Assembly (NCBI GenBank): GCA_028554795.2
Contig: JAPYKE020000281.1
Coordinates: 124,001-188,000, forward strand
Length of the DNA: 64,000 nucleotides
Source of the DNA: Sinohyriopsis cumingii
Taxonomy: Eukaryota; Mollusca; Bivalvia; Unionida; Unionidae
Reading direction: 5' to 3'
In this document: piece by piece, positions 8,713 to 52,620 of the stretch
Layout of the letters: each line of letters starts with the position of its first letter
Position numbering within the stretch: position 1 is the first letter of the stretch
The notes under the pieces: generated by a model
Told to the model about the DNA's origin: nothing
The model's input: only the letters and a program-made list of their open reading frames with translations
Databases searched by the model: none
Position numbers and translations under genes: made by a program

Positions 8713-10946
8713 CTCAAAATGAAACGAACGTGATATTCCATGGTGTCTTTTTGATGATTACAATTGAAAGAGTTCATATTTTCCCCACATTATGATTCCA
8801 AATATTCAATGACAGGACAGAAATACGCACACAGCTGAGTCAACTCCCTCCCTATTCAAATCACAGACACGTGTGCCTTGTGTGGAATTGACACAGCTAA
8901 TTAATCTAGTCAGTAATCAGCGGAGTAGAGTTAAATCGACAAAATAAAATAAATCTATTTATTACATACTAACTGGAAAAGCTGTTGTAATTCGAATTCA
9001 TTTACAATATGACTAAATTTTAAGAAGTCCAAAACGACACTTCTTTTTGAAAATGGTGTCGAGCGTGCGACTAAGTTCAAAGGTCTCATGGCGGTGCTTT
9101 GTTCGCATTAATATTGTTATTGTGTAGTGATGAATCTACGGTTGTGTATTACTTTGGAATACAGCATAAATCAAATTTGTTTCTTGTAGTGTATTTTGTG
9201 TAATTAATCCTTAGGTAGAATAAGAAAATGATAATAAAAAGTTAGTGCATTTGTTTGGGAAAATATGCACTCGTTTTTTTCGGATGGATAATTTACTCCC
9301 TATAAGTGCTGTATCAATGCCAAAAAAAGCTTGTTTATATTTTCTCATACATATGCAGTAATCTTTATATAAACACATTGATATATGGCTAAATTTACGG
9401 AACAAGTGGGAGATCTGGTAAGCTTTACAAGCAAGCCTAAAATGACTCAAGTCAGAATTTACGGTAAATAAAGTTGAAATGCTTAGTATAAGAAGTATAT
9501 GTTTTAAGTTCAATCAAACGACAAATCTGAAATCCTTCATAGATTTGTAAGAATGGAAAAAAGAAGAGCAAACATTCTTCAAGAAAAAAGTACCTATTGC
9601 AGACAGATTTCTTGGTAGCATGTTGATAATACTTAAATAGCAAAGTATTTTCTGAATGCTTTTATGTCATTTTAAATGACAACTACAAATGCAAATAGTA
9701 TTTAATAAATCTTTGCTACGATGCTGTATGTCCTGTTGCTTGCACAAATATCTCTCAGTTGTGGAAACAAGCAGGATCCAAGATAATCGTTGTTTACATA
9801 ATGTTTCAGCAAAACATACTTCTGTCACCGTGAGTTTTTCGAATCATCAAACTAGAGTAATTGCGAAAGAATTTGAAGTACACGTGCATTCAAAATTGAT
9901 CCCAATTCTACCAATAATGCAGCAAAATGATAGTCTGTGCTTCCTGATACATGGAACTGAAATATCAATGGCTGCGGTTAAACTTTGTGTTTATCCCACA
10001 TTGAATCATAATGTTTAAGACCTTTGTTTGAAACACTGTCATTATCATTTGGTTGTAATGTTCTTTAAAAAGTTTTTTTTTAATAGGATTTCCAATTTGA
10101 CACAGTCGAGCCGATTACTTAAATATAGTGACTTTAATCACCCCCCCCAAAAAAAAAAAAAAAAAAACTTTGGTTCCCGTTGCTGACTCCCTGCCACCGG
10201 GCTCCTCATCACATCAAAGGACGTGGTTGTTGTAAGGAAGATTTCAAATAATGATCTGTTAAATTGAAAATAAATGGCTTGCATGTAGGCTGCATGACAA
10301 ATCTCCAAAATATAATACTTTTCAATCATTAAACCGTCAAAAAAAAAAAAAAAAATTAAAAAAATCGGGCGCACATAACATCAAAGTAGCCAGTTTTCCG
10401 TTTTAGTTGATAGTTTTGGATCTGTGTTACCATGTCTTTAGAAAGTCAAGCACAGTTTGTCAGTTATCTTTCTAAAGCATGATATGCCTCTGTTCCTCCC
10501 AAAAGATATAAACGGTAGAAGAGGTCTGGGGGAATAGGCAGATTCAGTTACAAGACAGCTTAAAATCCATCACAACACCCTAAACAATGTTTGTGTGACA
10601 AGATGATTAGTCGTAGAACACTGAAAGAAAGGAACACTTGCATCAAAGCAGCAATGGACCAAAGCAAGAAGCGCCTTGTTCGGAGACTAACGCTTAGCCC
10701 ACAGTCATGTGATGTGAAATAATCATTCAAGAACGCTTTTTCTGATTCTGCTAGTAACACCAAATAGTTCTGAAGATGACGGACACCAGCTGAATGATTT
10801 GTAATAAACCGCATCTGATCTGATGACAAACATTAGAAAGAAGATAGTAGTATATATAGAGAGAGAGATTTCTAAGTCACAAAATGTACACTTTTTATTA
10901 CTACTGTATTTCTCAACCCATGTTCAGTGCGGCTTAATACTATAAT
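8713..10946. other. Non-coding, nothing recognised
   Basis: No supportable gene. Homopolymer tracts are present: C8 followed by a long A run near 10140-10167, and an A run near 10338-10355. Confidence 0.4.
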
Positions 10947-11335
10947 TCTGGACCATCCCTATTAACATTTTTACGTCTGTATTTCTGGACCATCCCTATT
11001 AACATTTTTACGTCTGTATTTCTGGACCATCCCTATTAACATTTTTACGTCTGTATTTCTGGGCCATCCCTATTAACATTTTTACGTCTGTATTTCTGGG
11101 CCATTCCTTTTAACAACTTTACGTCTGTATTTCTGGACCATCCCTATTAACATTTTTACGTCTGTATTTCTGGGCCATTTCTATTAACATTTTTACGTCT
11201 GTATTTCTGGGCCATCATTATTAACATTTTTACGTCTGCATTTCTGGGCCATCCCTATTAACATTTTTACGTCTGTATTTCTGGGCCATCATTATTAACA
11301 TTTTTACGTCTGTATTTCTGAGCCCTCGATTGTTT
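10947..11335. repeat. 37-bp tandem array, about ten units
   Basis: The unit CCATCCCTATTAACATTTTTACGTCTGTATTTCTGG repeats with a 37-bp period; successive GACCATCCCT starts are at 10951, 10988 and 11025. Later units carry small substitutions (GGGCC for GGACC, CATTATTAAC for CCCTATTAAC). Related half-units seem to trail off to about 11410. Confidence 0.85.
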
Positions 11336-15690: not shown

Positions 15691-16104
15691 TCTACACATG
15701 AACTTATAAGCACAGCTGCATCCCGCTAGCCATGATATATTTGAATAAAGTTCTCAGCATCAACAGCTACTCAAGTATCCGGAAGAAAAGCATAAAAAAC
15801 TGAATTACATTCACAACTGTACACGAACTTGCTTAACAACAGTGAAACATTGACATTATAAATACCTTAAGATTCAATGCCGCTGGTGTCACTATTCGTG
15901 ATGAATGCAAAAGTGTCATCCCCAAGACTAAGCTGAAGTAGAACAACACTAATTTTTAATGATATTATTTATTGAAGGACTGGTACTGACACTTTCCGTC
16001 GGGTTTATTTCGGCTGGATATCGCAGTTATTTAGTAAAGGGCTGCGGAAAGATTTTAAAATAATCGTTGCTGCAAACAATCGACGTCACAGACTTTTCCA
16101 AGAG
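15691..16104. other. Duplicated 5' flank of TRIM copy B
   Basis: About 15700-15880 resembles about 35830-35980 upstream of copy C (shared TTTGAATAA, TACTCAAG, AAAAACTGAATTAC, TAAAACAT-like words). This indicates that the duplication included upstream, possibly promoter, DNA. The part homologous to the RING and B-box 1 exon of copy C is not recognisable here. Confidence 0.5.
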
Positions 16105-17595
16105 AATATTAATGTCAAGGCCATGAAGCAGTATGTTGTACAGACTGTTTCTTTTCTAACCATAGAACATGTGACCAAGTGAAAAGTATGAGTAAAGATC
16201 TTCCATGTATTTTAAATGACATAAAGCCTGAAGAAATAATGGAACAGATGAAGAAAATCGAAAAACACCTGTAGACCTTTACAACGACGAATTAGTCAAA
16301 TATTATCAAATTAGATCAACAATAAATAACTCTACAGCTGAAATTCGGACTATTAGAAAGATAGTTAACGAAAGGCTCGATGAAATTGAGAGAATGGTGA
16401 CAACAGAGGGAAACCGAATTTGCAATGAAGAATTGATTGGGGGACAGGAGGAGAATCTTCAATACCAATGTTTAATAAATGCTGTTAGAAAGTCTCATTT
16501 ACTTTTCGAATCAGCCCTGACGTATGGAGCAGACACTCAAAAGTTTCTTGTGCGTAAGAAGTCTATTTCCCGGTTGAAATCTTACAAAGTTTACATCAGA
16601 GAGAAATATGAAGAAATTAAGTTCGTCAGAGTTTAGCTAGAGCTTGGCAGCTTCGTGAAAGTAATACCGTCTTCAGATCTCTACAAAATAGCTAAGCTTT
16701 GAACAGTCCAAGGAAGATCGTAAGAGTTTCCCTTGTTATGGCATTAGTGACAGCCTTGCATTTTCCATCACGAGGAAACTTTCACGAGAACGTCCGATAA
16801 AGTTAGCCAATGTATTGAACATGGAGTGTCTAGAAAAAAATATAGCATTTTACACAGGCGGTGATTGGTTTCCTGGTGGAGATATGGTGCTGGCAGACTC
16901 TAGTAATATAGTGTGCATCCTGTATGATTCAACTTACAACGTCATCACCAGTTTCACCTTGCCATTAAATCCAAGTAGCATATGTTCCTTGCACGATCAT
17001 GAAGTTGCCGTTACGCTATCTGACCTAAAGACAGTCCAGTTCTTGTCCGTCAGAGACAGTGCCATCAGCGACACAGAAACATTAAAGACTAGGTATCTAT
17101 GTTTCAGTGTGTCTACCATCAGCATTAATGATGTGGTTACTGGTTGTACCAAAGACAGTGATAAATGTTACTGGAGCCTTGTCAGCAGAACAGCAGGGGA
17201 GACGTACTGCCATGAGTTTGATTGCCATTTATAGTAATCGGTGCTATCGTTGCTCTGAATAATTACAGTCTCGTGTCTACATCTCTGTTGAGATGAATAA
17301 TTCGCTATACTGTTTTTGTCTGAGTGATGCATTACAGTACTTTGTCTACACTTCACATGATCTACAGTGTCCACTTGGTATAACTGTTGACAAGGAGGAC
17401 AGTTTGTATGTAGAGGGATGCAAGTGTAACACTATCCATAAACTGTCTCCAGAAGGTATAACACTCCAAGTAATCACGTCTGGTGTTCCTCTGCGTCCTT
17501 TGCGAATTTTCATCGACAAGAGCAGAGAATATTTCATGATGACAAATGATAGTGGTAATCAAAATGAAAAGCTTGATCTGTTTACTTATCAGTAG
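16105..17595 (+). pseudogene. TRIM-like pseudogene, copy B (B-box 2 to NHL region)
   Basis: Homologous to 37040-38512 of copy C. It begins inside the second B-box (ACAGACTGTTTC...AACCATAGAACATGTGACCAAGTG), continues through a coiled-coil region with a matching GAGAGAATG...GAGGGAAACCG block, and ends in the NHL-like region with a stop at 17593-17595. Visible lesions are a TAG at about 16274, indels near 16300-16340, a TAG in the linker at about 16634 (end of the 16394-16636 frame), frameshifts before 16815, and a TAG near 17232. The open pieces 16394-16636, 16815-17234 and 17293-17595 keep recognisable protein similarity. RING and B-box 1 are missing. It cannot encode a full TRIM protein. Confidence 0.85.
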
Positions 17596-19960
17596 AATGT
17601 AACTCCTTAGCATGGATAAAGTGCGACTATATATGTGTTCTCGTTTTTTGTTAGATTTTTTTCTGTGATGAAATTATCTGTCCTCATTGATTAGTTTACT
17701 TCTTACGTATGAAGAGTTCAGAGACATATTACTGTCCATATTGCTGTTTAATGCATGATAAACGTTTCACTATTACTCAGGTTGGTAATTAAAATTTCAT
17801 CGGTACATATTTAATCATTTCATAGCTCCCGAATTGTTAGGTGCAAGGGATTAAAACCTTCAGAATAATTGTTTGGTATAGTTAATTTGTATTGTTTGTT
17901 AGTTTTTTTCTATTCGTTTTTATATTATTCTATTTATATGCTTATCCAAAATCAAGTAATTGTGAGTTGGACCTTACGTCCAAAATCAAAGGTCATTTTC
18001 TACTTGACATGAATCATTGATTTTTGTTGTAAACAGCTAATATATAGAGGTATAGTTTCTCTATGAGTATGGTTTTACTAATAGGATTATTAGTTTAGTA
18101 TGAGTCGAGGACATTGTGTTTACCACATTTTATATTCTAAATATAATTGTCTTGTAAATAATAGGAACATTCTAGAAGGTTATTTTCCATTATGTAATGG
18201 TTTATGTTAAAAAATGTTTATTGTGACCTGGTATTAATAGAGGACTATATAATCTTGTGTTTCTATAAATCATTCCTTTGTGCTTAACATCTGAGCAGAA
18301 TAAATTGTATTATTATTATTCTGTCTAATAGGTCATTTGGGCTAGAATTTTATTTATTCAAACTATTTATTCACTGGAAATAAAAAGTGCTCATTATAAA
18401 TAACATTCTTGGAAAAAGAGCCTTGCATTTGTAGTGAAATTTAAAGTAAAGGTATATTCTTGGATTGTGTTATTATGATCCAACAAAAGACTGATGGCAC
18501 ATCACCACTACGTGGACCCCCATAAGCACATCAACACTTTCAGCGTTGGATTATTTGGATTTCTACTAAAGTTTATTCAGAACTTTAATCATTAGGACTT
18601 GTGTTTGTCATTCTAGGATTATTTGGGATTTAATTTGCAATACGTAAGTTCCTTTTTTTAATTACATTTTCTCTTTGTATTCTAGGGAAATAAATTATTT
18701 ATTGAATTTTACAAAGCTTATAGCTTCTCACTCTTTTCTATTACTAATTTCAAGACAACAGAATCGTAATATTATAATTAATTGAGGATGAATTGATTTT
18801 ATGACTGATATAGTTGGCTCATAACGCATGAAAACGTATCTTTTGGGTATCTCTAATTTGAGTGTGTGTGTGTGTATGTATGTATGTATGTATGTCTACG
18901 TATCCAAGTATTTGTCTATATAAATTACAGATATCAGACTTATTTTACTATTTAAATGTTTATTGTTTGATATTATACCAAACTTAAATTTCGATCACTT
19001 CACTAAATAAACACACAACGTAATAAGCATCAAAGTTTCCAGAATATCACGTCTTTACACAGTATGTAACAATTACAGCATGATGAACCTAAATTCTTAG
19101 CCAATAGGTTAGAAATTTTATTATATATGGTTTTGTAAAATGAATGCTTAATCCGCAGTTCCAAATGATGACATCATTGCATTAGTACTTTATCTGTATG
19201 ACGTCAGTTATTTTCATGCATTATGCCACGGCACTAGGGATTATAGAAAAGATTATTATAATACAACTTTACTAAAGTAGGAAACAATGATTTCAACGAA
19301 ATTTATAAAGTCAAAGAAACGTAGGAATCTTGTGAAATCGTTAGCGACCCGCGATCTGCCTGAGAAAGTAATTTTACAAAAGATAAAATACAGTAACTAA
19401 TGTAAAAAGGAAAGAGTGTTGCAGCCATGTACATAACAAATGTTTCTGAAAGAAAAACGATCAAAAACTTAAAAATGTAATTTATTATTATTTGTGTACA
19501 ACAGAAGCCATTTGAAAGTGAGGTAGCTTTTAATCTGCTACCAGGGTAAAACAAAATAAATAAAAAATGGATTACGTTTAATATAATAGTTTACCAAATT
19601 GTTTTATTTATTGTATAGGAATAAGAAATCTATATAGATTGTATCAGCCCCGTTATAAAATTATCTTTTTCGATCATATTTTGTCCTGACTTTGGTCAAA
19701 TATTACTCAAAATGGAGAAAATATGTTTACAAGTGTCTGATAAACGCTTGATCCTGCATATATTTTGCATATACACATTTTATTACTTAACTAATGGATA
19801 TTTTTCTAGAACAAAGACATGGAACATTGCTGATGCGGTGATGTCTTGATATCACAGCAACGTTTGTTGAAGCTTGTCAACCCTATTAGATTCACCATAG
19901 TTTGTGGAGGACATGCACAATTTTTTAGGACAGGTATGTATAATTTGGTATTAAACGATC
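17596..19960. other. Duplicated 3' flank of TRIM copy B, incl. empty LINE target paralogue
   Basis: About 17890-18780 matches 38560-39530 downstream of copy C (for example CTTTCAGCGTTGGATT and TTTATTCAGAACTTTAAT). About 19110-19540 matches the LINE target region 23582-23876 plus 30023 onward. About 19600-19920 matches 30180-30485, ending in ATTCACCATAGTTTGTG. No gene. A short GT/ATGT microsatellite lies at 18862-18894. This block gives the pre-insertion reference for the LINE at 23877-29758. Confidence 0.65.
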
Positions 19961-23156: not shown

Positions 23157-23612
23157 TTCTTCCACTAAGCTTATCACAAAATAAACAAAATTTAATTAGC
23201 TTCAATTTTTCAAAATACCATGTACTGTCATATAACTTAAGAATTACGGCTTGATACTACATTGTACCAAATGTATTGGAAATTGAAGGATATAGGTAAG
23301 ATTATCAATAAATATTGGGATTTATTAAAATTATCACGTAAAGCAAATGTTAAATTGCTACACGAAAGCAAACCGACACTTGCTTATAAAAGGACTAAAT
23401 ATCTTAAAGCTGAAATATTTTCAGCATGTTTTTTTATGTTTTCTAATTTCATGGTGTTTGTTTTTTGTAATCATATCATTATATACGTTTTTATGTTATA
23501 GGTGTTGTCTAATGTTGTGAAGCGCATAGAGCTCCAAAGAGTAGGTGCTATACAAAGTCCTCATTATTAGTATTATTATTATATATGGTTTTGAAACATC
23601 ACTGTGTAATGC

Positions 23613-23876
23613 ATAGCTCCAAATGACGTAATCATGACAATAATGCATATTCTATATGACGTGAAATATTTATTGTATTTTGTTCTAATACTATGGCCTT
23701 TTTATAAGGTATTATTCAATTATTCTGATCAACGGAACAACGATTTCATAAGAAGTGTATGAAATCAACAAAAATTCTATGGCATCTTGGTAAATCATTA
23801 GCAAGTCATAATCTGTATGAAAAAGTAAACTTTACTGCTGTAAAACTTTAAGAATGTTGCAGCATTATATAAATTT
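23613..23876 (+). repeat. Left copy of 264-bp target-site duplication
   Basis: Identical to 29759-30022 except at two positions (23643 A versus 29789 C; 23791 T versus 29937 G), with no length change: the offset is 6146 throughout. The right edge coincides with the start of the LINE 5' leader. The right partner begins where the LINE (GAT)n tail ends, with a 2-base AT ambiguity. Confidence 0.88.
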
Positions 23877-23958
23877 GCTTGACTTGTTTACTGTTTAAAA
23901 CAGACGTTATTCCTGCTTTCAAAACATTGCGCTGAGAAAACACACAGACTAATTGAAG

Positions 23959-26001
23959 ATGGCGGACTGTTCAGATGGACGTTGCAGTGCTTATGTGCAA
24001 ATCATGGATAATTCTGTTTATGAGACTCGCTCCAGGAAGAAATATACTGAACTGGAAACAGAAAATGAAGGTGATTGTACTGTACATGGGAATTGTGGTT
24101 TAAATGCTTTTTATGACGCAGATTTGGTGAGTGATGAGCCTGACAATGCAAACAAGGCAGATCTATGCTCGCAACCTCAGTACACGAGTACACAGAATGT
24201 TGATAATACATGTTTTGACAGAGATGCCCAAGATTCGAGTCACCGTTGTAACAGCCCAACATATCAAGATGTCATATCTCAGGTTCCCAATCAGGACTAT
24301 ATTAGAAGACTTGATCAGGAACTAGATAATCTACCCAGAGACATGTATATTGAGAAATTGCTAGAGGTTTCACACGACAGTGAAGATATTGTAACCTGGT
24401 ACAGGTCAGTTTTATTTAGTAGAGCACGAGGTTTTCCTGGCTGTCCATCTGGATATTTGGTTGTTAGAAAAAACAGAAATGGTGTAAGTAGTTTAATAAA
24501 ATATGCAAGGGATTGTTATTCTTTAGCTATATTTATAAAAGGGGATCCTTGCGAGATCGATTCTATTTTTAGCAAGAAGAAATCAAACCCTAATGTACAA
24601 GCTGAACATTGTGAACATGACGATGAACATAGCTCAGGGCAAGCAGAACAAGTGATTAATTCAGCAAGACTCTCGCTAGCGGAAATCAAGAGTGATTGCG
24701 GTCATCTACAACAAACTGTCGTTTCACTCAGAGAAGAGATTATATCTCTGAAGGCAACCCAAATCACATTGGTGAATATGAATGACCTTAATGCATTCCG
24801 TGCTGATGTAAACAATAAGGTACAGACACAATCTCAAACAATAGGACTGCTCCGTAATGAGATTACGTCACTGAAAACTACTCAAAGCGTGTTGATGAAA
24901 GAAAATGAAACTCTCCACACCATCACCGAGCAACTTAGAGTTAAGCTGATGAAATCTTTGAGTAAACCCATGTCTTATGCGGATGTCGTTCGCACGAATA
25001 GTCCAGCTGTAAGTAACCTATCATGTAGTCCCAATGGATGTGGTGATAGCTCTCCATCAGTTGCTGCTCAGAACAAGATTCATGTGTCTAACTGTTCATC
25101 TTCCGTCTTGATTGACTCTAACAAAACTGGTTGCGATACACACTGCCGCCTATCAAGTGAATCTCAGAACAGAACTGCAGTGTCCAACTGTTAGTCTCCC
25201 GTGTTGGTTGAGGCTGACGACTCTACACCAGGTAGAACGGCAGTGGAGTCACGAACCGGTGTAACGGCCCAAACAACTATGGAAAAGAGTGGGGTCAGTG
25301 CTCTGCAAACTCTGGTTTCAAAAAGTTCGGATATAATTTCACAGACTTTCGTTAGAAGACATATCGCCCCCTTCGATGGAAATATCCCACAGATTTATAA
25401 AGCCAGTGTTCATCCTGATGTGACAAATGTTGTGCGCACACCCATTCAGAATCAAAATAAACTGTTAACTTCGACTTCGACCAGGATAGAGAACGCTAGG
25501 CATCCGATTACTAGCAACAGTAATGTGAAAGGTATAGACTTGAAAACCCCTCCTAGCAAGATACCTACCGTTATTGGGGGTCAGGTAGAAAGACCTAGAT
25601 CATTTGGTAAATCAGGTTTAGAAATAGGTTCAGAGAGTATTGTTGGACATGAGGATGTTGATGACAAAAATGAGAATATTGTATTTGAAGGTGTAGTTAG
25701 ACGTAGAACAAGGCGCTTTTATGTGGGTGGCATTGGCGTCAAATCTACTGCTGAAGGCCTCGGTAAATTCTTGAAAGAATACGATATAGATCCGTTATCC
25801 ATAAAGTTTATCCACAGTAGACGTAATTGTATATCGGCCAAGCTGACTGTATATAATTCAGACTGCGACACTGTTGAAAATGATGTAACATGGCCAAAAG
25901 GTGTTTATGTAAGAAGGTGGTATGGGAATCAATCTTGGCGAGACAGGTTTAGCAATCGCGATCAGGAGGCAAATGAAGGTGCAGGATGCGATATTCTGTG
26001 A
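23959..26001 (+). pseudogene. LINE ORF1 protein, one in-frame stop
   Basis: ORF1 proteins bind the element RNA and act as nucleic-acid chaperones. One frame runs from ATG 23959 (context GAAGATGG, good for translation) to TGA 25999-26001, about 680 codons. It is interrupted only by TAG at 25192-25194. Visible parts: an acidic N-terminal region; a coiled coil at about 24640-24960 with two related heptad-rich blocks (LREEIISLKATQ and LRNEITSLKTTQ); a Ser/Asn-rich linker; and a C-terminal basic domain starting RRRTRRFYVGGIG (about 25699-25960) that looks RRM-like. The stop falls in the linker, inside a local duplication (VSNCSSSVL against VSNC-stop-SPVL), so a Ser codon is the likely ancestral state. 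It could be a recent nonsense mutation or a sequencing error. Confidence 0.8.
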
Positions 26002-26037
26002 CTAGGGTGACAGTTAATTGTTCATCAATTTGCCATT

Positions 26038-29000
26038 ATGTTCTGTCGTAAGTTAATGTGTTTTGTCATCTTTGTCATTTTAGTCCTGCTTTCACGATGC
26101 ATAAGTATTAATATGCCTATATTGCAAGTTAATATGAATCTTAATATACTGACCTGGAATGTTAGAGGAATTATGTCCTCTGCTCTTAGCTTTAGTGCAA
26201 TGCTGGATAAATATAATGTTGACGTAGCTTGCGTAACTGAACATAAACTATTACAGCACATACTTCCATTTTGCGATACTATTCGTTCTGATTATAAATG
26301 CACTGCTAAGGCAGAGGATATTTCCTCTAATTGTATGTTAATAAAATGTGGCAAAGGAGGAGTTGCAATCTTCTGCAAAACTTCTCTCATGAGATATGCT
26401 AACTTTATAGATGAAGTTAATAGTGACAGAGTTGTTGGCATAGAATTCAAATTTCCTGATATGCAAAATGTATATATTTTTTGTGTATATATACCGACCC
26501 TATTATATGGCATAGATTGTTACAAAGCGCAAATTGAGTTGATTCAAAATCTCTATGATCAGTACTCACAGCTGGGGGACGTGTATTTTACTGGTGATTT
26601 CAATGCAGTAGCTGAACCAGCCACTTTCAGAGATTACAAAGATAGAGTATTTCATGAGTTCTTGCGATATAATAATCTAGTGAGTGCTGGACATTTAATA
26701 ATATGCACTGGTTCCCGCTATACGTTCACCCCAGCAAGAACGATGATTGATCATTTTGTACTGTCGGATCAATGCATAGGTAGATTACGAAGTGTGCACA
26801 TTGTTTCAGATCACGAAGAGCACGCGATATCTGACCACCTCCCTATCCTTACTTCCCTTCGTACAGTGACCTGTGGGAGAGACTTCAGACAGTCTATGAA
26901 GAGAAACAACATAGCCTGGAATAAATTAAACGCTGATATCTTGAAAAACTATCAATCTGAGCTGGACCTTCGCCTGAAAACTTTAGATATAGATACTATT
27001 TCGGACACTGTTGATAGCTTTTACCAGCACATTGTTAATGCAATACAGCAGTCAAGCGACATCGCGCTTCCAAAGTCTAAATTCAATTATCATGCCAAAC
27101 CATATTGGTCAAATGAACTCAAAGAAGCACATAAACTTCAAAGACAAGCTAGGTATACTTGGATAAATGAGGGAAGACCGAGGGGTAGTCAATTTAATTC
27201 TTACAGAGAATATAAAGATAAGAAGAGAGACTTTAGAAACGTTCAAAAACTGGCTGTGGAAAAATATATGGGGGAGGTGTATGAAGAAATTGAAAAAGCA
27301 CATGAATGCGATGTAAGACACTTTTGGAAAATGATCAACATTAAGAGAGGGAACAATACAAATTTTTGTCAGGAACTATCAACTGATGGAGTTTGTGTCC
27401 GTGATGATGATTCCATCTCAAATGGCTTTGCTAGATACTATGAGGACATTCACACGCCGAATTTAAACCATAGTTTTGACGGAAACTTTTATGAATTTAT
27501 AGAGAGAGAATTAAATCGGGGTCTACAGGACGAAGTAAGCCATATCGAGGCCTTACAGACCAGTATCAGTTTAAATGAAGTAAGAGAAATCATTAAAGGT
27601 CTAAAGAAATCAAAAGCATCGGGCCATGATCAAATTTGCAATGAACATTTGATCTATGGCAGCGACTACCTCATCGAGTGTATGACAATTTTATTTACTC
27701 GGATGATTGATCAATCTTACATACCTGTAGATTGCAAAAAAGGGTTAGTAATACCACTGTACAAAGGTAACAGAAAATCAAAGAACTCCCTCGAAAGTTA
27801 CAGGCCTGTTACTTTACTGCCTGTTATCTACAAAACCTTTGAGAAAATTATTCATGAACGTTTGGTAACTTGGCTCAAAGATACTAATTCTAGTATACCC
27901 AGTTCACAACAACATGGTTACCAAAAAGGTTTAGGCTGCACAACAGCGAGTTTTGTGCTGTTGCAATCAGTACAATATAATGTAAACATGGGTTCACGGG
28001 TTTTTGCTGCTTTTCTTGATACAAAAAAGGCATTTGATACCGTGTGGCACGAAGGACTGCTTTTTAAATTATTCACGTTGGGAATTACGGGTAAATCCCT
28101 TTTGATATTTTTTAACATGTATACAAATTTACAGAGTAAAGTTCTTGTAAATGGGCAATTTTCAGATTGGTTCTCAATTGGCCAAGGAGTGAGACAAGGG
28201 GGTGTTTTGTCAACCTTGATGTACACAATATTTATAAATGACTTGCTGCTACAGTTAGAAAATAGTGGATTTGGAGCAAAGATTGGATCCTTAGCTGTGG
28301 GAAATCCAACCCTAGCTGATGATATTTCACTTTTGGCTATATATCCTAGCAATCTACAAAAGCTGTTAGATATAGCATACGACTACAGTAATAAGTGGCG
28401 ATTCGAGCTTAGTGTTACAAAGTCATACATTATCATTTTCGGACCCCAATACAAGAATTTTATCAATATGAAATGGTATCTTGGCCCGTCATGTTTGCCG
28501 GTCACCGATTCGGCAACACACCTGGGTCACCGGATTAACTCAAAGCTGACGTCGCATGACGCAATACTCGATGCATGCAAGAAAGGGAAAAAATCTTTTC
28601 ACGGTCTGTTTGGTATTGGCATTAAACCGAATGGTTTAAATCCTTTGGTTGCTGCAAATGTAATTAAAAAGGTAATTTTCCCTTCAATGTTTTATGGAAG
28701 TGAATTATGGTGTAACATTTCAAAAAGTGACCTCGCTTTATTGGATAAAACTCTGAGGTATTTTGCCAAACATTTACAAGGTTTTCCAATACATACAAGA
28801 TCAGACATTGCCCTGGGAATGCTAGGATGGACATCAGCGCAGTCCGAAATTGATAGAAGAAAATTGATGTTTTTACACAGATTGTGTTTGATGCCTAACA
28901 ATGTACATACTAAACGTGTGTTTAACGTTGCGTTATTTCACTTCATTCTGAGCGGATGCATGTCAAGCTGCGGGTTAATTTCAAATTTATATTATACCTC

Positions 29001-29565
29001 AAAGAAGTTTGACTTGCTCGGGTATCTAACTGATTATTTACATCATTCTGAAATTCCAGATAAACATAATTGGAAAGAAATTGTAAGGTCAAAAATTGTT
29101 GGTCTTGAAAATAGCCTCTGGAGAGTTCGTATGTCTAATCAAGCAGATTTTGATAGATTCTCTTCGATACACGAATACTTACGACCTGCCTCAGTGTGGC
29201 AGTCGGCTAAAACTAGACAACACACTAAGGTATTTACATATGTAGCTAAACTATGGGCTGCTGTTCCACAAACACAGCTTGATATGTGTATTAGATGTGG
29301 GAATGTTTATAAAGACTTGATACTTCATTGTTGTGTTAGTTGTCTTTATATGTCGAACTTTCGAAATTCTTTCTGGGATTTCCTTACTGATAAATTTCCC
29401 CTGAGCCTGCACATTACGTTATTTAATGCGGAAGATGAGCTGCAACTACAATATCTTTTAGGTAAAAGGTTACCATCAGGAGTAATCGACAAAGAAAACT
29501 CCAAGCTATTCGTCCTGTATGCAGCATACTTTGTCATGCAATGTGCAGCTATCTTCTGTAAATAA
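26038..29565 (+). CDS. LINE ORF2: endonuclease and reverse transcriptase
   Basis: This encodes the target-primed reverse-transcription machinery, nicking DNA and copying the element RNA at the nick. It is 1175 codons and open throughout. Endonuclease: TWN at 39-41, E68, GDFN at 186-189, IDHF around 237-240, SDHLPI at 265-270; the expected catalytic residues are present. Reverse transcriptase: LYKGNRKS (about 574), SYRPVTLLP (588-596), FLDTKKAFD (659-667), GVRQGGVLS (717-725) and the catalytic box LADD at 759-762, with Leu-Ala in place of the commoner Tyr/Phe-Ala. C-terminus: C1084, C1087, H1097, C1102 (CX2CX9HX4C). The endonuclease fold starts near residue 35, so the hydrophobic first 25-32 residues may be untranslated. 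ATG at 26113 or 26134 is an alternative start. The frame is the same as ORF1, with 36 bp between them. Confidence 0.92.
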   Translation: MFCRKLMCFVIFVILVLLSRCISINMPILQVNMNLNILTWNVRGIMSSALSFSAMLDKYNVDVACVTEHKLLQHILPFCDTIRSDYKCTAKAEDISSNCMLIKCGKGGVAIFCKTSLMRYANFIDEVNSDRVVGIEFKFPDMQNVYIFCVYIPTLLYGIDCYKAQIELIQNLYDQYSQLGDVYFTGDFNAVAEPATFRDYKDRVFHEFLRYNNLVSAGHLIICTGSRYTFTPARTMIDHFVLSDQCIGRLRSVHIVSDHEEHAISDHLPILTSLRTVTCGRDFRQSMKRNNIAWNKLNADILKNYQSELDLRLKTLDIDTISDTVDSFYQHIVNAIQQSSDIALPKSKFNYHAKPYWSNELKEAHKLQRQARYTWINEGRPRGSQFNSYREYKDKKRDFRNVQKLAVEKYMGEVYEEIEKAHECDVRHFWKMINIKRGNNTNFCQELSTDGVCVRDDDSISNGFARYYEDIHTPNLNHSFDGNFYEFIERELNRGLQDEVSHIEALQTSISLNEVREIIKGLKKSKASGHDQICNEHLIYGSDYLIECMTILFTRMIDQSYIPVDCKKGLVIPLYKGNRKSKNSLESYRPVTLLPVIYKTFEKIIHERLVTWLKDTNSSIPSSQQHGYQKGLGCTTASFVLLQSVQYNVNMGSRVFAAFLDTKKAFDTVWHEGLLFKLFTLGITGKSLLIFFNMYTNLQSKVLVNGQFSDWFSIGQGVRQGGVLSTLMYTIFINDLLLQLENSGFGAKIGSLAVGNPTLADDISLLAIYPSNLQKLLDIAYDYSNKWRFELSVTKSYIIIFGPQYKNFINMKWYLGPSCLPVTDSATHLGHRINSKLTSHDAILDACKKGKKSFHGLFGIGIKPNGLNPLVAANVIKKVIFPSMFYGSELWCNISKSDLALLDKTLRYFAKHLQGFPIHTRSDIALGMLGWTSAQSEIDRRKLMFLHRLCLMPNNVHTKRVFNVALFHFILSGCMSSCGLISNLYYTSKKFDLLGYLTDYLHHSEIPDKHNWKEIVRSKIVGLENSLWRVRMSNQADFDRFSSIHEYLRPASVWQSAKTRQHTKVFTYVAKLWAAVPQTQLDMCIRCGNVYKDLILHCCVSCLYMSNFRNSFWDFLTDKFPLSLHITLFNAEDELQLQYLLGKRLPSGVIDKENSKLFVLYAAYFVMQCAAIFCK

Positions 29566-29643
29566 GGTACTGAAACTTGCAACTTATGAGTTGACGAACA
29601 CTTTGTTGATTGATATTGTGTAAGAATTTGTATTCCAATATAG

Positions 29644-29645
<2 letters not shown>

Positions 29646-29682
<37 letters not shown>

Positions 29683-29758
29683 TTTATTGATTGTATTCAG
29701 ATGATTTATTCTTATATCATGTAATCTTCCATGGAAGGAAATAAAGATGATGATGATG
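29646..29758 (+). other. LINE 3' end: T tract and (GAT)n tail
   Basis: A run of 34 T (29646-29679) follows ORF2 by 80 bp. The element ends in GGAAATAAAGATGATGATGATGAT, with five GAT triplets at 29746-29760. Short microsatellite tails, not poly-A, are known for several LINE groups. The AATAAA just before the tail could serve as a polyadenylation signal. Confidence 0.75.
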
Positions 29759-30022
29759 ATAGCTCCAAATGACGTAATCATGACAATACTGCATATTCTA
29801 TATGACGTGAAATATTTATTGTATTTTGTTCTAATACTATGGCCTTTTTATAAGGTATTATTCAATTATTCTGATCAACGGAACAACGATTTCATAAGAA
29901 GTGTATGAAATCAACAAAAATTCTATGGCATCTTGGGAAATCATTAGCAAGTCATAATCTGTATGAAAAAGTAAACTTTACTGCTGTAAAACTTTAAGAA
30001 TGTTGCAGCATTATATAAATTT
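29759..30022 (+). repeat. Right copy of 264-bp target-site duplication
   Basis: Partner of 23613-23876. Sequence beyond it (30023 onward) continues the similarity to the paralogue at about 19440-19920. The right flank is therefore the natural continuation of the pre-insertion locus. Confidence 0.88.
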
Positions 30023-31209: not shown

Positions 31210-31650
31210 CAGGTGAGTATTATTCCCTTTGTTGTCCGAGGTGAAAGAAGAATTGCTGTATATCAATCAGCAGGAAGGCGTTATCGATAAAGTAAATGAG
31301 CCCATAGAATGGTGTGCACCAATGGTACTTGTCCCAAAGAAGAATGTGTTGATTTAAAGAATCTTAACTAGGCTGTCAATAAGGAGAAGACATATGCTCC
31401 CACTCCAGACGATATATCACCAAAGCTTACAGGTTATACAGTCTTCACCAAACTTGATGCAGAAAGCGGATTTTGTCAAATACACATACATCCAGAAAGT
31501 TGAAAAGCTGACTACATTTATTACACAGCTGAGTCACTACTGCTTTAAACGAGTCTCATTGGTATTATGTCAGCATCAGATATTTTCCAGAGAAACACGT
31601 CCGAGCTGCTACTGGTTATGAAATGGAGGATAATGACCGAAACCTAAATT
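31210..31650 (+). pseudogene. Gypsy-type reverse transcriptase, broken
   Basis: Around 31255-31345 the translation resembles the start of Gypsy reverse transcriptases (an EWCAPMV-like block), and around 31410-31610 the fingers/palm region with FTKLDAESGF. Several stops and frame changes separate the blocks, and the catalytic YxDD box is not intact. It continues into the frame at 31655-32269. Confidence 0.7.
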
Positions 31651-31654
31651 TATT

Positions 31655-32269
31655 TTGGAGAAGCTCAAAAGGAGTGGTCTCAAGCCCAGCAAAGAAAAAT
31701 GTGAGTTTAGGAAGAGGAAACTGGAACTCTTCGGTCACGTGATCATCTCAGATGGCATACTCTCCAGTCCAGCAAAGGTTGTCGCAGTGAAAGATATGAG
31801 TGAGCTTCGTCGCACCGTGGGCATTATCAACTACCTTGTTAGATTTCTCCCAGATATGTCTAAAATAATGCGACCAATTATGGACCTGGTGAAATCAGAA
31901 CTGCCTGGTATCATGATAGTCAAGGAAATGTTTATATATACGCAAGATGTAGCATTCTACGACCATGTAAAGTTAACAATTGTTAGTACTAATGCCAGCA
32001 GTTCGGGTATTGGTGGTGCATTATTCCAGCAACATGGAGAGAAGCTCAAAACGATTGCCTTTGTTCTAGAAAACTCACCTCTTCAGACGTTAAATATTCA
32101 CAAATATAGAAGGATTGCCATGCACGTTTTTAGGGCCTGTGAGAAGTTTTTACTAATTCTTGTTGAATTTGATTTGTTCAGATTGCATACCGACCACAAA
32201 TCTTTTATTCCACTGACTAACACGCATGCTTTAAATAAAGCTCATCTGATGTGTCATCGATGCGCTTGA
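31655..32269 (+). pseudogene. Gypsy-type RT connection and RNase H fragment
   Basis: A single open frame of about 204 codons. The N-terminal 30 residues match the end of the reverse transcriptase (KCEFRKRKLELFGHVI). The next 60 match the connection region (INYLVRFLPDMSKIMRP). The C-terminal 100 match RNase H (NASSSGIGGALFQQHG, RLHTDHKSFIPL). Degeneration shows in the RNase H: the first catalytic Asp position reads Asn, and the acidic residue expected in the middle helix is absent. This would be inactive even if translated. Confidence 0.8.
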
Positions 32270-35825: not shown

Positions 35826-36515
35826 AGATGCGTCACCACAACCATTATAGATTTGAATAAGCTCCCTTTCTCAATAGTAACTCAAGACTCCGATGAAACC
35901 TTAAAAACTGAATTACAATCACTACATTACGAGACTACAGTAAAACATCGAAATTATAAATTTAAAATAAATTAAGACATCGATGATAAAGAATGCATAG
36001 AAAGTTAGCAATTAGCGACAATTGTCCCCTACATTACCGTTTTTTTTTTTTAAAATGAAGTTTGTGTTGACGTTTTTGTCAGTTAAAATACCACTATTAT
36101 TCATTCTTTGTGACAGATGACATTAGCTATGTTTATGGTCAACAGAATTGTCTTTTTTGTCTTGCCCAGTTTTCATATCCGAATGACCACTAATGTGACC
36201 GTGTTACGTCGTTCTAAATTATTTATCTTGACGGATTTGAACTTGTCCGAATTTGAATATATTTCAGGTAAAAGGTTACAGTTGTGAGCATTCGTGTTTA
36301 CAGCACTGCATATCATTACTTTGCATAGACGGGATAAGTCTCTTTTGGCAATGGTATCCGCATGAATGCAATGGACTAAATATATGTATGCAAGCGGAGG
36401 AAAATTCCGATTAGATAATATTGTTTATCACAATAGTTCAGATCAAAGTACGGTTTTGTTTTCTCTTCGAAACGTAACATTTTACACTTCCTAATCAAGC
36501 CAGCATTTTATCGAA
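35826..36515. other. 5' flank of TRIM copy C
   Basis: The first 150 bp resemble the flank of copy B. The remainder would hold the promoter and 5' leader, but no convincing TATA box or initiator can be singled out. Confidence 0.45.
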
Positions 36516-38512
36516 ATGGCCAGCATGATTGTAGAGTCAATATCGACATACGGACTGGTTTGCCCGATTTGTTTCGATGTTTTTACTTCACCTCGCCAAC
36601 TTCCATGTATGCATTCGTTTTGTCAGAAGTGTTTACAGGATTTTATATCTAAAAAAGATGACAGTAAAGGAGAGTTTGGAAAGGAATTCCTGTGTCCAGT
36701 GTGCAGAGCGATTACAAATCCACCAAAAACCAAACAACCTATCGGAGAATGGGCTTCTCTATATCCGCAAAGCCCAATTTCTGTGCTAGAAGGACCAACA
36801 GTGAAAACAGAAAGGTATTGTAGCGGCTGTCAGTATGCTGGTGAATCCAATACGGCGCAGGGGTTTTGCGTCATGTGTGAGGAAACATTGTGCAATACAT
36901 GTTTAATAGTCCATAGGAGAACTAAGTCGACCAGAGAGCATAAAGTAATCAGTATGGAAGAATTAAACAGCAATAAAAATACCAGATGATGTTCGCTGAA
37001 GGGTTTGGGTGTCCTGACCATCAAGACAAAAACATAGAATACTATTGTGAAAGCCACGAAGTAGTTTGCTGTACTGACTGTTTCCTTTCTGATCATATAA
37101 CTTGTGACCAAGTGAAAAATTTGAATGAAGATCTTCCAAGTCTCCTAAGTGACTTAATGCCTGAAGAAATAATGGAGCAGATGAAGACGATTGAGAAACA
37201 CCTGCATACCTTCACAATGACGAATGAGTCAAATATTGGCAAATTAGAGGCAGCAATCACCAATCTTGCGGCTGAAATTCGAGCTGTGAAACAAAAAGTT
37301 GACGAGAGGCTGGATGAGATTGAGAGAATGATGACGACTGAGGGAAACAGAATATACAGAGAAGAAAAGATCCGAAAACAAGAGGAGAATCATCAGTGCA
37401 AATGCTTAATTATTGCTGTCAGAAATTCATATACCTTTCTCGAGTCAGTCCAGAAGTATGGGACAGATACTCAAAAGTTCTATGTGTCTAAGAAATTGGT
37501 TACCCACTTGAAATCATACATAGTCCAGATCAGAGAGAAATATGAAGACATATAGTCTGTTAGGGTTCAGTTAGAACTTGATGGCGTCGTGGAAAAACTT
37601 CTTTCTCCAGATCTTAGTAATATAGTGAAGTCCAAGGGATATCATAACAGTTTTCCTTGTTCTGGTATTAGTGAGGGTGTTGTTTTTTCTAGCACGAGGA
37701 AACCATTACGAAAGAGCCATATGAAGTTAGCCAACGTGGTGGACATGCAATGTCCATGTAAAAAGATACCCATATACACGGGTGGTGTTCAGTTACGTGG
37801 GGGAGACATAGTACTTGCGGATTCTAACAACACGACATGCATTCTGTATGATTCAACTTATCAGTTTTTAACTACGCACATGTTACCATCAAAGCCAATG
37901 AGCATAAGTTTGCAGCATGAAAATGAAATCGCCGTTACGTTACCTGACCTGAAAACAGTCCAGATCCTGTCAGTCAGAGACAAGTACATCAGAGACACAG
38001 GAACTGTGAAGACCAGATATGTATGTTTCGGTGTAACTTCCATCAGTATTGTTGTTACCGGTCGTGTGGATGACAACAAGAAATGTTACTGGAGTCTTGT
38101 CAGCAGGACAGCAGGGGAGAGGTGTATTCATGAGTTTGCTTGTCTTGACCTTTCCGGAGCTTATGTCGCTACGAATAATTCCAAGTCACGTGTCTATATC
38201 TCCGTGGAGCTGGGTAACGCTTTATACTGTTTTGGTCTAACAGACGGAAGAAAGTACTTTGTCTACACTTCAAATGATTTAAAATACCCACGTGGTGTAG
38301 TCGTTGACAGAGAAAACAACGTTTATGTAGTGGGAGGTAACTCTGACAATATCCATAAACTGTCTCCAGATGGTATTCCTCTTCGAGTTATCACATCAGG
38401 TGTTCCAGAAAATCCTATCAGACTTTTCTTTGACGAGAATAGAGAAGGTTTCTTTGTGACAAGTCGTAGTATTAATCAGAGCACGAAACTTCACATGTTT
38501 GTTTATCAATAG
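36516..38512 (+). pseudogene. TRIM protein gene copy C: RING, B-boxes, coiled coil, NHL-like
   Basis: The best preserved member of the local TRIM family. Such proteins are E3 ubiquitin ligases. Segment 1 (36516-36989, ATG in good context GAAATGG) has a C3HC4 RING with C16, C19, C31, H33, C36, C39, C60, C63 and B-box 1 with C102, C105, C118, C121, C126, C129. Segment 2 (frame from 36986 to a TAG at 37553-37555) has B-box 2 (C9, H12, C21, C29, C32, H37 of that piece) and a coiled coil. Segment 3 (37556-38512, same frame as segment 2) is the NHL-like region, including YPRGVVVDRENNVYVV. A small insertion plus a deletion near 36975-36990 shifts the frame between the B-boxes, and one TAG separates coiled coil from NHL. 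There is no intron-like sequence at either break. It is a recent pseudogene or a gene with sequence errors. The truncated RING/B-box 1 protein (157 residues) could still be made. Confidence 0.85.
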
Positions 38513-43610: not shown

Positions 43611-43913
43611 GCTCCGGTGGTCTAGTGGTTAGAGCGTCCGCCTCGGATGCGGGAGTTCGTGGGTTCGATCCCCGGCCGAGTCATACCAAAGACTTACAAA
43701 CATGGTACTAACAGCTGCCTCGCTTGGTGTTCAGCATTAAGAGTTAGTGTTAGGACTGGTCGGCCTGGTGTCAGGATACTGTGACTGGGTGGTTCATCAT
43801 GCTACATGTCTGCAGCATGATGCCCCAGTGCTAGACATCACTATAAAATACCACACTGCAGACATCGTAGCGATATGACTGAAAAATTGTTAAAGCTAAG
43901 TTAAAAATCAAAA

Positions 43914-50245: not shown

Positions 50246-52620
50246 CTAAGGTGGTGTGGAAGTCTGCAACACTGAGCAAGCTCTGTCTGAAGCTCTGTTA
50301 AGCCAGCTAGAAACCACAGACTCTGATACCAACGACGTAGAGAAATGCTGGGCGGCCTTCAAACAGCTGGTGTACCCTACTGGATCTGAAAGCCTTGGCG
50401 TCACTGCGCGAAAGCACCAAGACTGGTTCGACGAGAATTGTGACGAAATATAGTCCCTGCTAGAGGAGAAGCGTCGTCTCCATCGTGCATACAACATCGA
50501 CCCCAAGTCCGCTGCAAAGAAAGATGCCTTCATCTTAGTCTGCCAAGCTGTGCAGAAGAAACTGCGCGAAATGCAGGACACATGGCTGAGCCGAAAGGCT
50601 GATGATATTCAGTCCTTTGCCGACAGACACGACATGAAGAATTTCTATAGTGCTCTTCCTGACGTTCATGGCCCAGTAACATCAAGCACAGCCCCTCTCT
50701 TGAGCTCTGATGGCAGCACTCTCATAACCGAGAAGAAGAAGGTACTGGATTGCTGGGCTGAACACTTTGACGCTATCCTAAACAGACCCTCTTCCATCAA
50801 CGACGAAGCGATCAAGCGTCTACCCCAAGGGAGATCAACGATAGATTGGCTGACCCTCTAACAGTGCTGGACACTCATAAGTCCATTGAGCTCCTGTCCA
50901 GGAGCAGACTCCATCCCGGCTGAGATCTGCAAGTCTGGTGGGCCTAAGCTAGTGGAAAAACTAAAAGAAATGTTTTTTGGGGGATGTGGAAGATGAAACG
51001 CATACCCCAGGAATTCAAACATGCATCCATCACCCACATTTACAAACGCAAAGTCAATCTCTGTCCTGCGACAACCACAGAGAAATCTCTCTATTCTGCA
51101 TCGCGGGCAAGGCCATCGCCATGCTACTGCTGAACTGAATCGCAGAACACATTGATCATGGCTTACTGCCAGAAAGTCAGGGTGGCTTAAGAAATGAGAG
51201 AGGCACCATGGACATGATCTTTGCTGCCAGGCAGATGCAAGAAAAGTGTCTTGAACAAAACGTCCAGCTATACACCACCTGACTAAGGCATTTGACACTA
51301 TCAGCCGAGAAGGCCTTTGGAAAATCATGACCAAATTTGGCTGTCCAGAAGTCTTCATTGAAATGGTGAGGCAATTTCATGATGGCATGCTTGCTAGAGT
51401 CCAGGATCAGGGTAACCATTCCGAACCCTTTGCAGTTACGAATGGTGTGAAACAAGGATGTGTCTTAGCCCCCAATCTCTTCAGCCTCATGTTCTCAGCA
51501 ATATTGATTCTTTCAAGGACAGCGATGTTGGAGTAGGTCTCCGATACCGTCTGGATGGAAAGTTGTTCAACCTGAGGAGACTTCAAGCCAAAACCAAAGT
51601 TGAGAACATTCGCGACCTCCTGTTTGCAGATGGCTGTGCCCTCAACTCCAGCACGGAGGCATGCATGCAACAGAGCATGGACCTTTTTTCCACAGCGTGC
51701 ACCAACTTCGGACTCACCATCTCTAACAGCAATACCGAGGTTCTGCATTAGCCAGCTCATGGAGAAGATTACCTGGAACCATCCATCACTGTCAATAGCC
51801 AAAAGCTCAAAAATGTAGACAGGTTCACATACCTTGGCATCACCCTCTTACAAGCAGTCCACACAGACGACGAGGTTAACACCAGGATTACCAAAGCCAG
51901 CGTAGCGTAGCATTTGAAGACTCCGCTCAAATGTCTGGGATAGGAGAGGCATCAAGCTTGCCACCAAACTCAAAGATTACGAAGCGGTTGTTCTCCTCAC
52001 CCTCCTCTATGCTTGCGAGACATGGACTCTTTATACCGCCATGTAAAAAACCTGAACCACTTCCTTATGAGCTCCCTGAGAAAACTACTGAAAATCAGAT
52101 GGCAGGACAAGGTACCGAACACAGAGGTGCTTACTAAGCCCGGTATGACAAGCATCCACACCATGCTGTGCAAGGCACAACTCCGAAGGGCCGGATATGT
52201 CTGCATGTCAGCAGAACGCCTACCTCAGGTCTTCTGTGGAGAACTACACCAAGGCATGAGATCACACCGTGGTCAAAAAAGAGTTATAATGACACCCTCA
52301 AGGCCTCGCTGAAGAATATAGGTATTGATCCTGACAGCTGGGACAGCGTCACTGCTACTCGATCTGCTTGGTGTAGTCAAGTCAATGCTGGTTCAGCAGC
52401 CTATGAGCAGAAAAGACTGGTGGACGCAGCTGCGAAATATGATCTGCGCAAATCCAGGAACAGAAGTTCCGCAACTCCAGGTCAGCAGCCTGTACATCCA
52501 TGTCCCGACTGCAATATACTCTTCTGGGCCCGGATCGGATTGATCAGCCATCTCCGGACCCACCCCTGGTAATTCGATGACATTAAATGGCCCTCATTGA
52601 CACCGATGGACGAACATCAT
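50246..52620 (+). mobile_element. Decayed LINE fragment, ORF2 C-terminal two thirds
   Basis: This is a 5'-truncated relic of a non-LTR element common in invertebrate genomes; the endonuclease domain is missing. Consecutive blocks in changing frames read through a pre-RT linker (50256-50861, with SRKADDIQSFADRHDMKNFY and CWAEHFDAILNRPSSI). Next come the RT palm (51290-51760, TKFGCPEVFIEMVRQFHDGM and NGVKQGCVLAPNLFSLMFS), then the thumb and C-terminal region (51770-52570). It ends in a C2H2-like finger (CPDC-X12-HLRTH at about 52498-52560) just before a stop. The catalytic FADD box at about 51624 reads FADG, so it was inactive even apart from the stops (for example TAG at 50451) and frameshifts. 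Base composition is clearly GC-richer than its surroundings. Confidence 0.88.

Follow-up and report, generated by a model that had tools for sequence, protein, structure and literature searches.

Recurrent long target-site duplications in a young APE-type LINE family of Sinohyriopsis cumingii

The stretch of the Sinohyriopsis cumingii genome analysed here (64,000 nucleotides, hereafter the window) in all likelihood contains a single insertion from a young family of APE-type LINEs whose members often, but not always, make target-site duplications (TSDs) of about 100–600 bp, by a mechanism that we infer. Long TSDs are a recurrent property of this family and not the outcome of one event.

The insertion in the window lies between two direct repeats of 264 bp on the forward strand, the left one at 23613–23876 and the right one at 29759–30022. 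By alignment, they are identical at 262/264 positions without indels, exactly as the initial annotation had described them, and they differ by A at 23643 versus C at 29789 and by T at 23791 versus G at 29937. Random pairs of 264-mers from the window (n = 19,812) reached an identity of 46% at best. The last base of the left copy (23876) directly precedes the first base of the LINE (23877), while the right copy begins inside the (GAT)5 tail of the LINE, the dinucleotide ‘AT’ being common to tail and repeat. Thus, the exact abutment claimed earlier holds at both ends, with a 2-nt overlap on the right, except that position 23877 is probably not the 5' end of the family. A search of the window's own 2.9-Gb assembly with the 264-bp sequence returned two places, which are the two copies in the window. 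These observations, together with the paralogous site described below, support the interpretation of the repeat pair as a true TSD arising from LINE insertion.

The element itself occupies 23877–29758 (forward strand, 5.88 kb) and is nearly full length, without the ~31 nt or more of 5' end that are present in other copies. Its reading frames comprise ORF1 (23959–25998, forward strand, 680 codons from the ATG and including an in-frame TAG at 25192–25194), which gave only weak matches below the cut-off in a Pfam search, and an open ORF2 (26038–29562, forward strand) that encodes an endonuclease-reverse transcriptase. ORF2 harbours an APE-type endonuclease domain (Exo_endo_phos, PF03372, 26149–26814 on the forward strand, 50.7 bits against a cut-off of 24.5) and a reverse transcriptase domain (RVT_1, PF00078, 27781–28503 on the forward strand, 85.4 bits against a cut-off of 29.6), and in the PDB it most closely matches chains of human L1 ORF2p and of R2 (E about 7e-18). 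An AATAAA motif followed by the (GAT)5 3' tail, whose last two bases are common to the target, is found at 29740–29760 (forward strand), and the 3' UTR includes an uninterrupted run of 34 T at 29646–29679. With endonuclease, reverse transcriptase, simple-repeat tail and dispersed copies all present, the element is an APE-type LINE (non-LTR retrotransposon); a modest TSD, generally 10–20 bp, is typical of LINEs without being strictly defining, and this family departs from it. Searches for ORF2 relatives in viral and prokaryote genome contigs gave pattern matches, none of which was confirmed, and the LINE tail pattern had 0 matches in viral contigs.

No further copy of this LINE, of any length, was found in the window, the only likeness to it being a 75-residue reverse transcriptase stretch (51285–51509) and one 24-bp match at 36256. 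The former is the sole reverse transcriptase match within a region of broken reading frames with the look of an old LINE (50454–52569), apparently the remains of an RTE-type element; in the stretches searched around these remains (~50.4–52.6 kb), direct repeats were limited to matches of 11–13 bp. Elsewhere in the window there are pieces of a TRIM-type gene at 36495–38509 (a RING domain over the cut-off, with weak B-box and NHL-type matches), to part of which the DNA at 16103–17623 is 73% identical, a minisatellite-like array at 10940–11327 (copies about 91–93% alike, shifted by 74 bp and by multiples of 37 bp), a fragment with an RNase H-like domain of the type found in reverse transcriptases at 31637–32266, ~1.6 kb beyond the right repeat, and a marginal tRNA-like match at 43611–43683 (29.2 bits against a cut-off of 29).

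A diverged paralogue of the insertion site at 19000–19948 (forward strand) holds a single copy of the repeat and no LINE. When the segment 18990–19950 was aligned to the left flank, one copy of the repeat and the right flank joined together, identities were 36/46 just left of the repeat, 178/256 within it and 323/467 to its right; the one-copy construct scored 143 versus 87 for a two-copy construct, bearing out the single copy that the initial annotation had placed at about 19.1–19.9 kb. The similarity said to run through both outer flanks does extend into the right one but is broken on the left, where 46 bp adjacent to the repeat are followed by 248 bases without counterpart and then by a further block at 23174–23294. 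Since the paralogue carries one copy and the genome only two places, the 264 bp are host DNA that was single before the insertion, in agreement with the earlier proposals that the repeat did not pre-exist and that the LINE insertion produced a long TSD.

Two other origins of the repeat were rejected. The 264-bp sequence is neither part of the element nor the end of other family members, as the genome search found only the window's two copies, and 3' transduction is contradicted by the paralogue, in which the 264 bp run directly into the flank that follows them. We likewise give almost no credence to a 264-bp tandem duplication that was already in place and received the LINE exactly at its junction: tandem and paralogous duplications do occur in the window, but the one-copy paralogue contradicts this scenario, the left repeat does not show the ordinary TSD running on into the second unit that insertion at a tandem junction would give, and independent insertions flanked by unrelated repeats show this geometry again.

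Those insertions were collected by querying the same assembly with the LINE's first 600 bp, a search in which 40 places, the window copy included, were scored from 145 candidates, leaving 39 other copies spread over many contigs. Complete stretches were retrieved for 19 of these 39 copies, namely search ranks 22–40, a choice independent of TSD. In 17/19 the LINE was recovered as one contiguous match of 5.8–5.9 kb at 98.9–99.6% identity, and the family is young. Five fetched copies with common flanks (cluster C3) were counted as one insertion, giving 15 distinct insertions, and 12 remained readable once L034 and L039 (without a contiguous 3' end) and L035 (in a tandem repeat) had been left out. 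TSDs longer than 100 bp flank five of the 12: 619/610 bp at L037 (no mismatch, nine gap letters), 246/221 bp at L042 (four mismatches, 25 gap letters), 239 bp (239–240) at L050 with identical copies, 185 bp at L051, also with identical copies and extending up to 196 bp if bases shared with the element are included, and 123 bp (up to 126) at L052 with one mismatch. Three more have TSDs of 11–53 bp (53 bp at L036, 45 bp at the L043 cluster, C3, and 11 bp, up to 16 with shared bases, at L040), and four have none above chance, L038 with 8 bp that do not stand out from chance and L041, L046 and L049 with no TSD. The same method applied to 182 mismatched pairs of left and right flanks from 14 copies yielded at most 9 bp; L042 scores 0 by this method because its repeat is gapped.

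The five copies of the C3 cluster (L043, L044, L045, L047 and L048) share a further peculiarity, a stretch of about 153 nt between the 45-bp TSD and the LINE. This extra stretch closes with a run of A that is fused to the LINE within the LINE's own A-run, and from its sequence it resembles a chimeric cDNA produced when reverse transcription jumped to a polyadenylated RNA as template; the whole segment seems to have been tandemly multiplied, as the five copies have common flanks.

Of the other 20 copies, eight were assessed by position only, by querying the genome with their 600-bp left flanks, no letters being fetched. In three of the eight, a further match began at roughly the element's 3' end, corresponding to TSDs of 132 bp at L016 (98%, its end lying 20 nt before the 5' end of the element), 109 bp at L008 (100%) and 176 bp at L013 (100%). 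The other five (L014, L005, L020, L022 and L012) were unreadable because their flanks are repetitive; at L014, the 3' end is indeed where a 454-base match (84%) begins, but this stretch matches tandem repeats in many places. As short TSDs are invisible to this approach, its 3/8 leans towards long ones. The L016 flank also matches a place 0.37 Mb away (query 1–580, 83%), the match stopping where the L016 TSD stops, a hint of a second one-copy paralogue. At L012, a young high-copy repeat of at least 575 bp (L012:724–1298, with at least 39 further places at 99% identity among the matches listed) ends 25 bp upstream of the LINE copy.

TSDs were thus tried at 27 of the 39 copies, and they exceed 100 bp in 8/15 readable insertions besides that of the window, while the figure free of method bias is 5/12. 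The initial annotation had proposed looking for flanking repeats of more than 100 bp at other copies, and these are evidently there; the ordinary short TSDs that it regarded as telling against its reading turned up in part, with one of 11 bp and four insertions with none. The same results make it very improbable that heterozygous alleles were wrongly joined on both sides of the LINE during assembly. The two mismatches between the 264-bp copies could reflect heterozygosity, the matter being judged from the assembly alone, without reads, but TSDs above 100 bp occur at eight other loci, and the copies of 239, 185, 109 and 176 bp are identical to each other within each pair.

Comparison of the 5' ends at 30 loci, the window's included, revealed that 22 extend upstream of the base matching 23877, that five (again including the window's) start exactly at this base and that three start further in. 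The upstream sequence is of two classes, either a leader that measures at most about 31 nt and ends in ‘...GAATTT’ (9/30) or an additional 127-nt unit, above which most loci have a similar leader (13/30). The 127-nt unit, whose final GATTTT stands before GCTTGAC, has the appearance of a 5' module that was duplicated and has diverged. As 22/30 loci carry more sequence upstream, 23877 is probably not the family's 5' end and the window copy is probably slightly 5'-truncated; alternatively, it may have been made from an RNA starting at 23877. ‘AATTT’ is a possible 5-nt microhomology at its 5' junction.

By homology with known LINEs, insertion presumably proceeds by target-primed reverse transcription. 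The element's endonuclease would nick the bottom strand at the left edge of the target stretch, and the 3' end at the nick would serve as primer for a cDNA begun on the LINE RNA's (GAU)n tail, a step that fits the 2-nt AT overlap. No closely placed second nick would then follow; the 5' end would be joined at a top-strand break 100–600 nt downstream, at the right edge of the stretch, with short microhomology in some cases, and fill-in would duplicate all the DNA between the two breaks. The distant second break would be opportunistic, and second-strand cleavage in this family would be uncoupled from the first. Long TSDs at several independent insertions, the one-copy paralogous site and the abutment on the element ends speak for this scheme, while the wide variation in TSD length, the 3/12 insertions with 11–53 bp and the 4/12 with no convincing TSD speak against it. 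The initial annotation had offered either very distant nicks or repair over a long resected gap. The former fits the scheme proposed here, whereas the latter alone appears insufficient, since the top-strand end must lie 264 nt past the first nick for DNA to be duplicated. The same final structure would result if the break were an ordinary one close by and the left top-strand end then invaded the sister chromatid or homologue, copied 100–600 nt and joined the cDNA. The variable lengths would suit such copying too, but it needs an extra step and leaves no trace separating it from a distant nick, and we consider it unlikely.

As to whether element or host is responsible, large L1 TSDs arise in human cells deficient in nucleotide excision repair (NER; XPA, XPC, XPD) and have been explained by the use of a distal, unrelated nick (PMC5223499). 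A repair defect of the lineage could likewise give long TSDs to all LINE-mediated insertions, and the L1 TSDs of the NER-deficient cells (median 1495 bp) have a spread that includes the lengths seen here (PMC5223499). However, XPA, the NER factor that we looked for, is represented in the same genome by an XPA_C domain (88.1 bits against a cut-off of 25). Moreover, a SINE with a CAA-rich tail matched the fetched DNA four times, and the two matches readable at both ends have TSDs of 14 bp (in the L037 stretch) and 15 bp (in L033, inside a tandem array). The short SINE TSDs, a small sample, and the presence of XPA_C weakly disfavour a general repair defect, which we hold to be improbable. The long-TSD trait seems to belong to this LINE, the control being two SINE copies only, and its cause would be the element's own machinery rather than the host.

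LINE TSDs are described as modest, generally 10–20 bp (PMC6895275), and human sperm Alu insertions had TSDs of 8–18 bp in 51/51 cases (PMC12633430). Akin to the large TSDs of human L1, which include values of 242, 275 and 277 bp (PMC5223499), those described here belong to an APE-type LINE and are variable and hundreds of base pairs long. In that report, L1 TSDs above 100 bp accounted for at most 10% of HeLa events and for 3/9 in complemented cells (PMC5223499); in contrast to such repair-deficient or complemented lines and HeLa, we deal with genomic copies of a natural family in a genome where XPA is present. In the HeLa study quoted by PMC2912911, 6/6 full-length L1 insertions had TSDs of 10–17 bp and extremely long TSDs went with 5'-truncated ones, whereas here nearly full-length copies have long TSDs.

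Long TSDs also occur outside APE-type LINEs. The R2 group, to which R9 belongs, combines a restriction-like endonuclease with an rDNA target, and R9 is reportedly rDNA-specific, going by the title of Gladyshev and Arkhipova (2009). R9 of bdelloid rotifers resembles the present family as a LINE with a TSD above 100 bp, in its case 126 bp (PMC6895275). Unlike R9 and the R2 group, however, the family described here has an APE endonuclease, copies dispersed over many contigs and TSDs of variable length, and at the window site no rRNA match reached the gathering score. HERV-K (HML-2) is, by contrast, an LTR element whose integration chemistry differs from that of a LINE. It resembles the present case as a retroelement flanked by hundreds of duplicated base pairs, with TSDs of 111 and 250 bp and a putative one of 450 bp, for which its authors allow pseudo-TSDs generated by recombination (PMC5488345). 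In the literature searched, in which few subscription journals were covered, we found no natural APE-type LINE family with TSDs habitually above 100 bp. Comparable TSDs are known from human L1 in repair-deficient cells and from R9. The initial annotation described the locus correctly, and the recurrence of long TSDs across this natural family is the stronger result.

Second-strand cleavage by LINEs is still poorly understood (PMC6895275). We tentatively propose, as a reading just short of evenly balanced, that this family has no coupled second-strand cleavage, its endonuclease making the first nick only and completion depending on chance or host-made breaks 100–600 nt away; long and variable TSDs would then be a heritable trait of the element, and many insertions would in addition leave the host with a small segmental duplication. 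TSD surveys that collect short lengths only, as exemplified by the 5–30 bp collected in PMC2912911, will miss such families. A natural family whose second break often lies 100–600 nt off, beside two ordinary-looking SINE copies, would separate both cuts by genetic means and allow a protein-by-protein comparison with short-TSD LINEs, and for the host it means that many jumps of this family duplicate hundreds of bases of its DNA.
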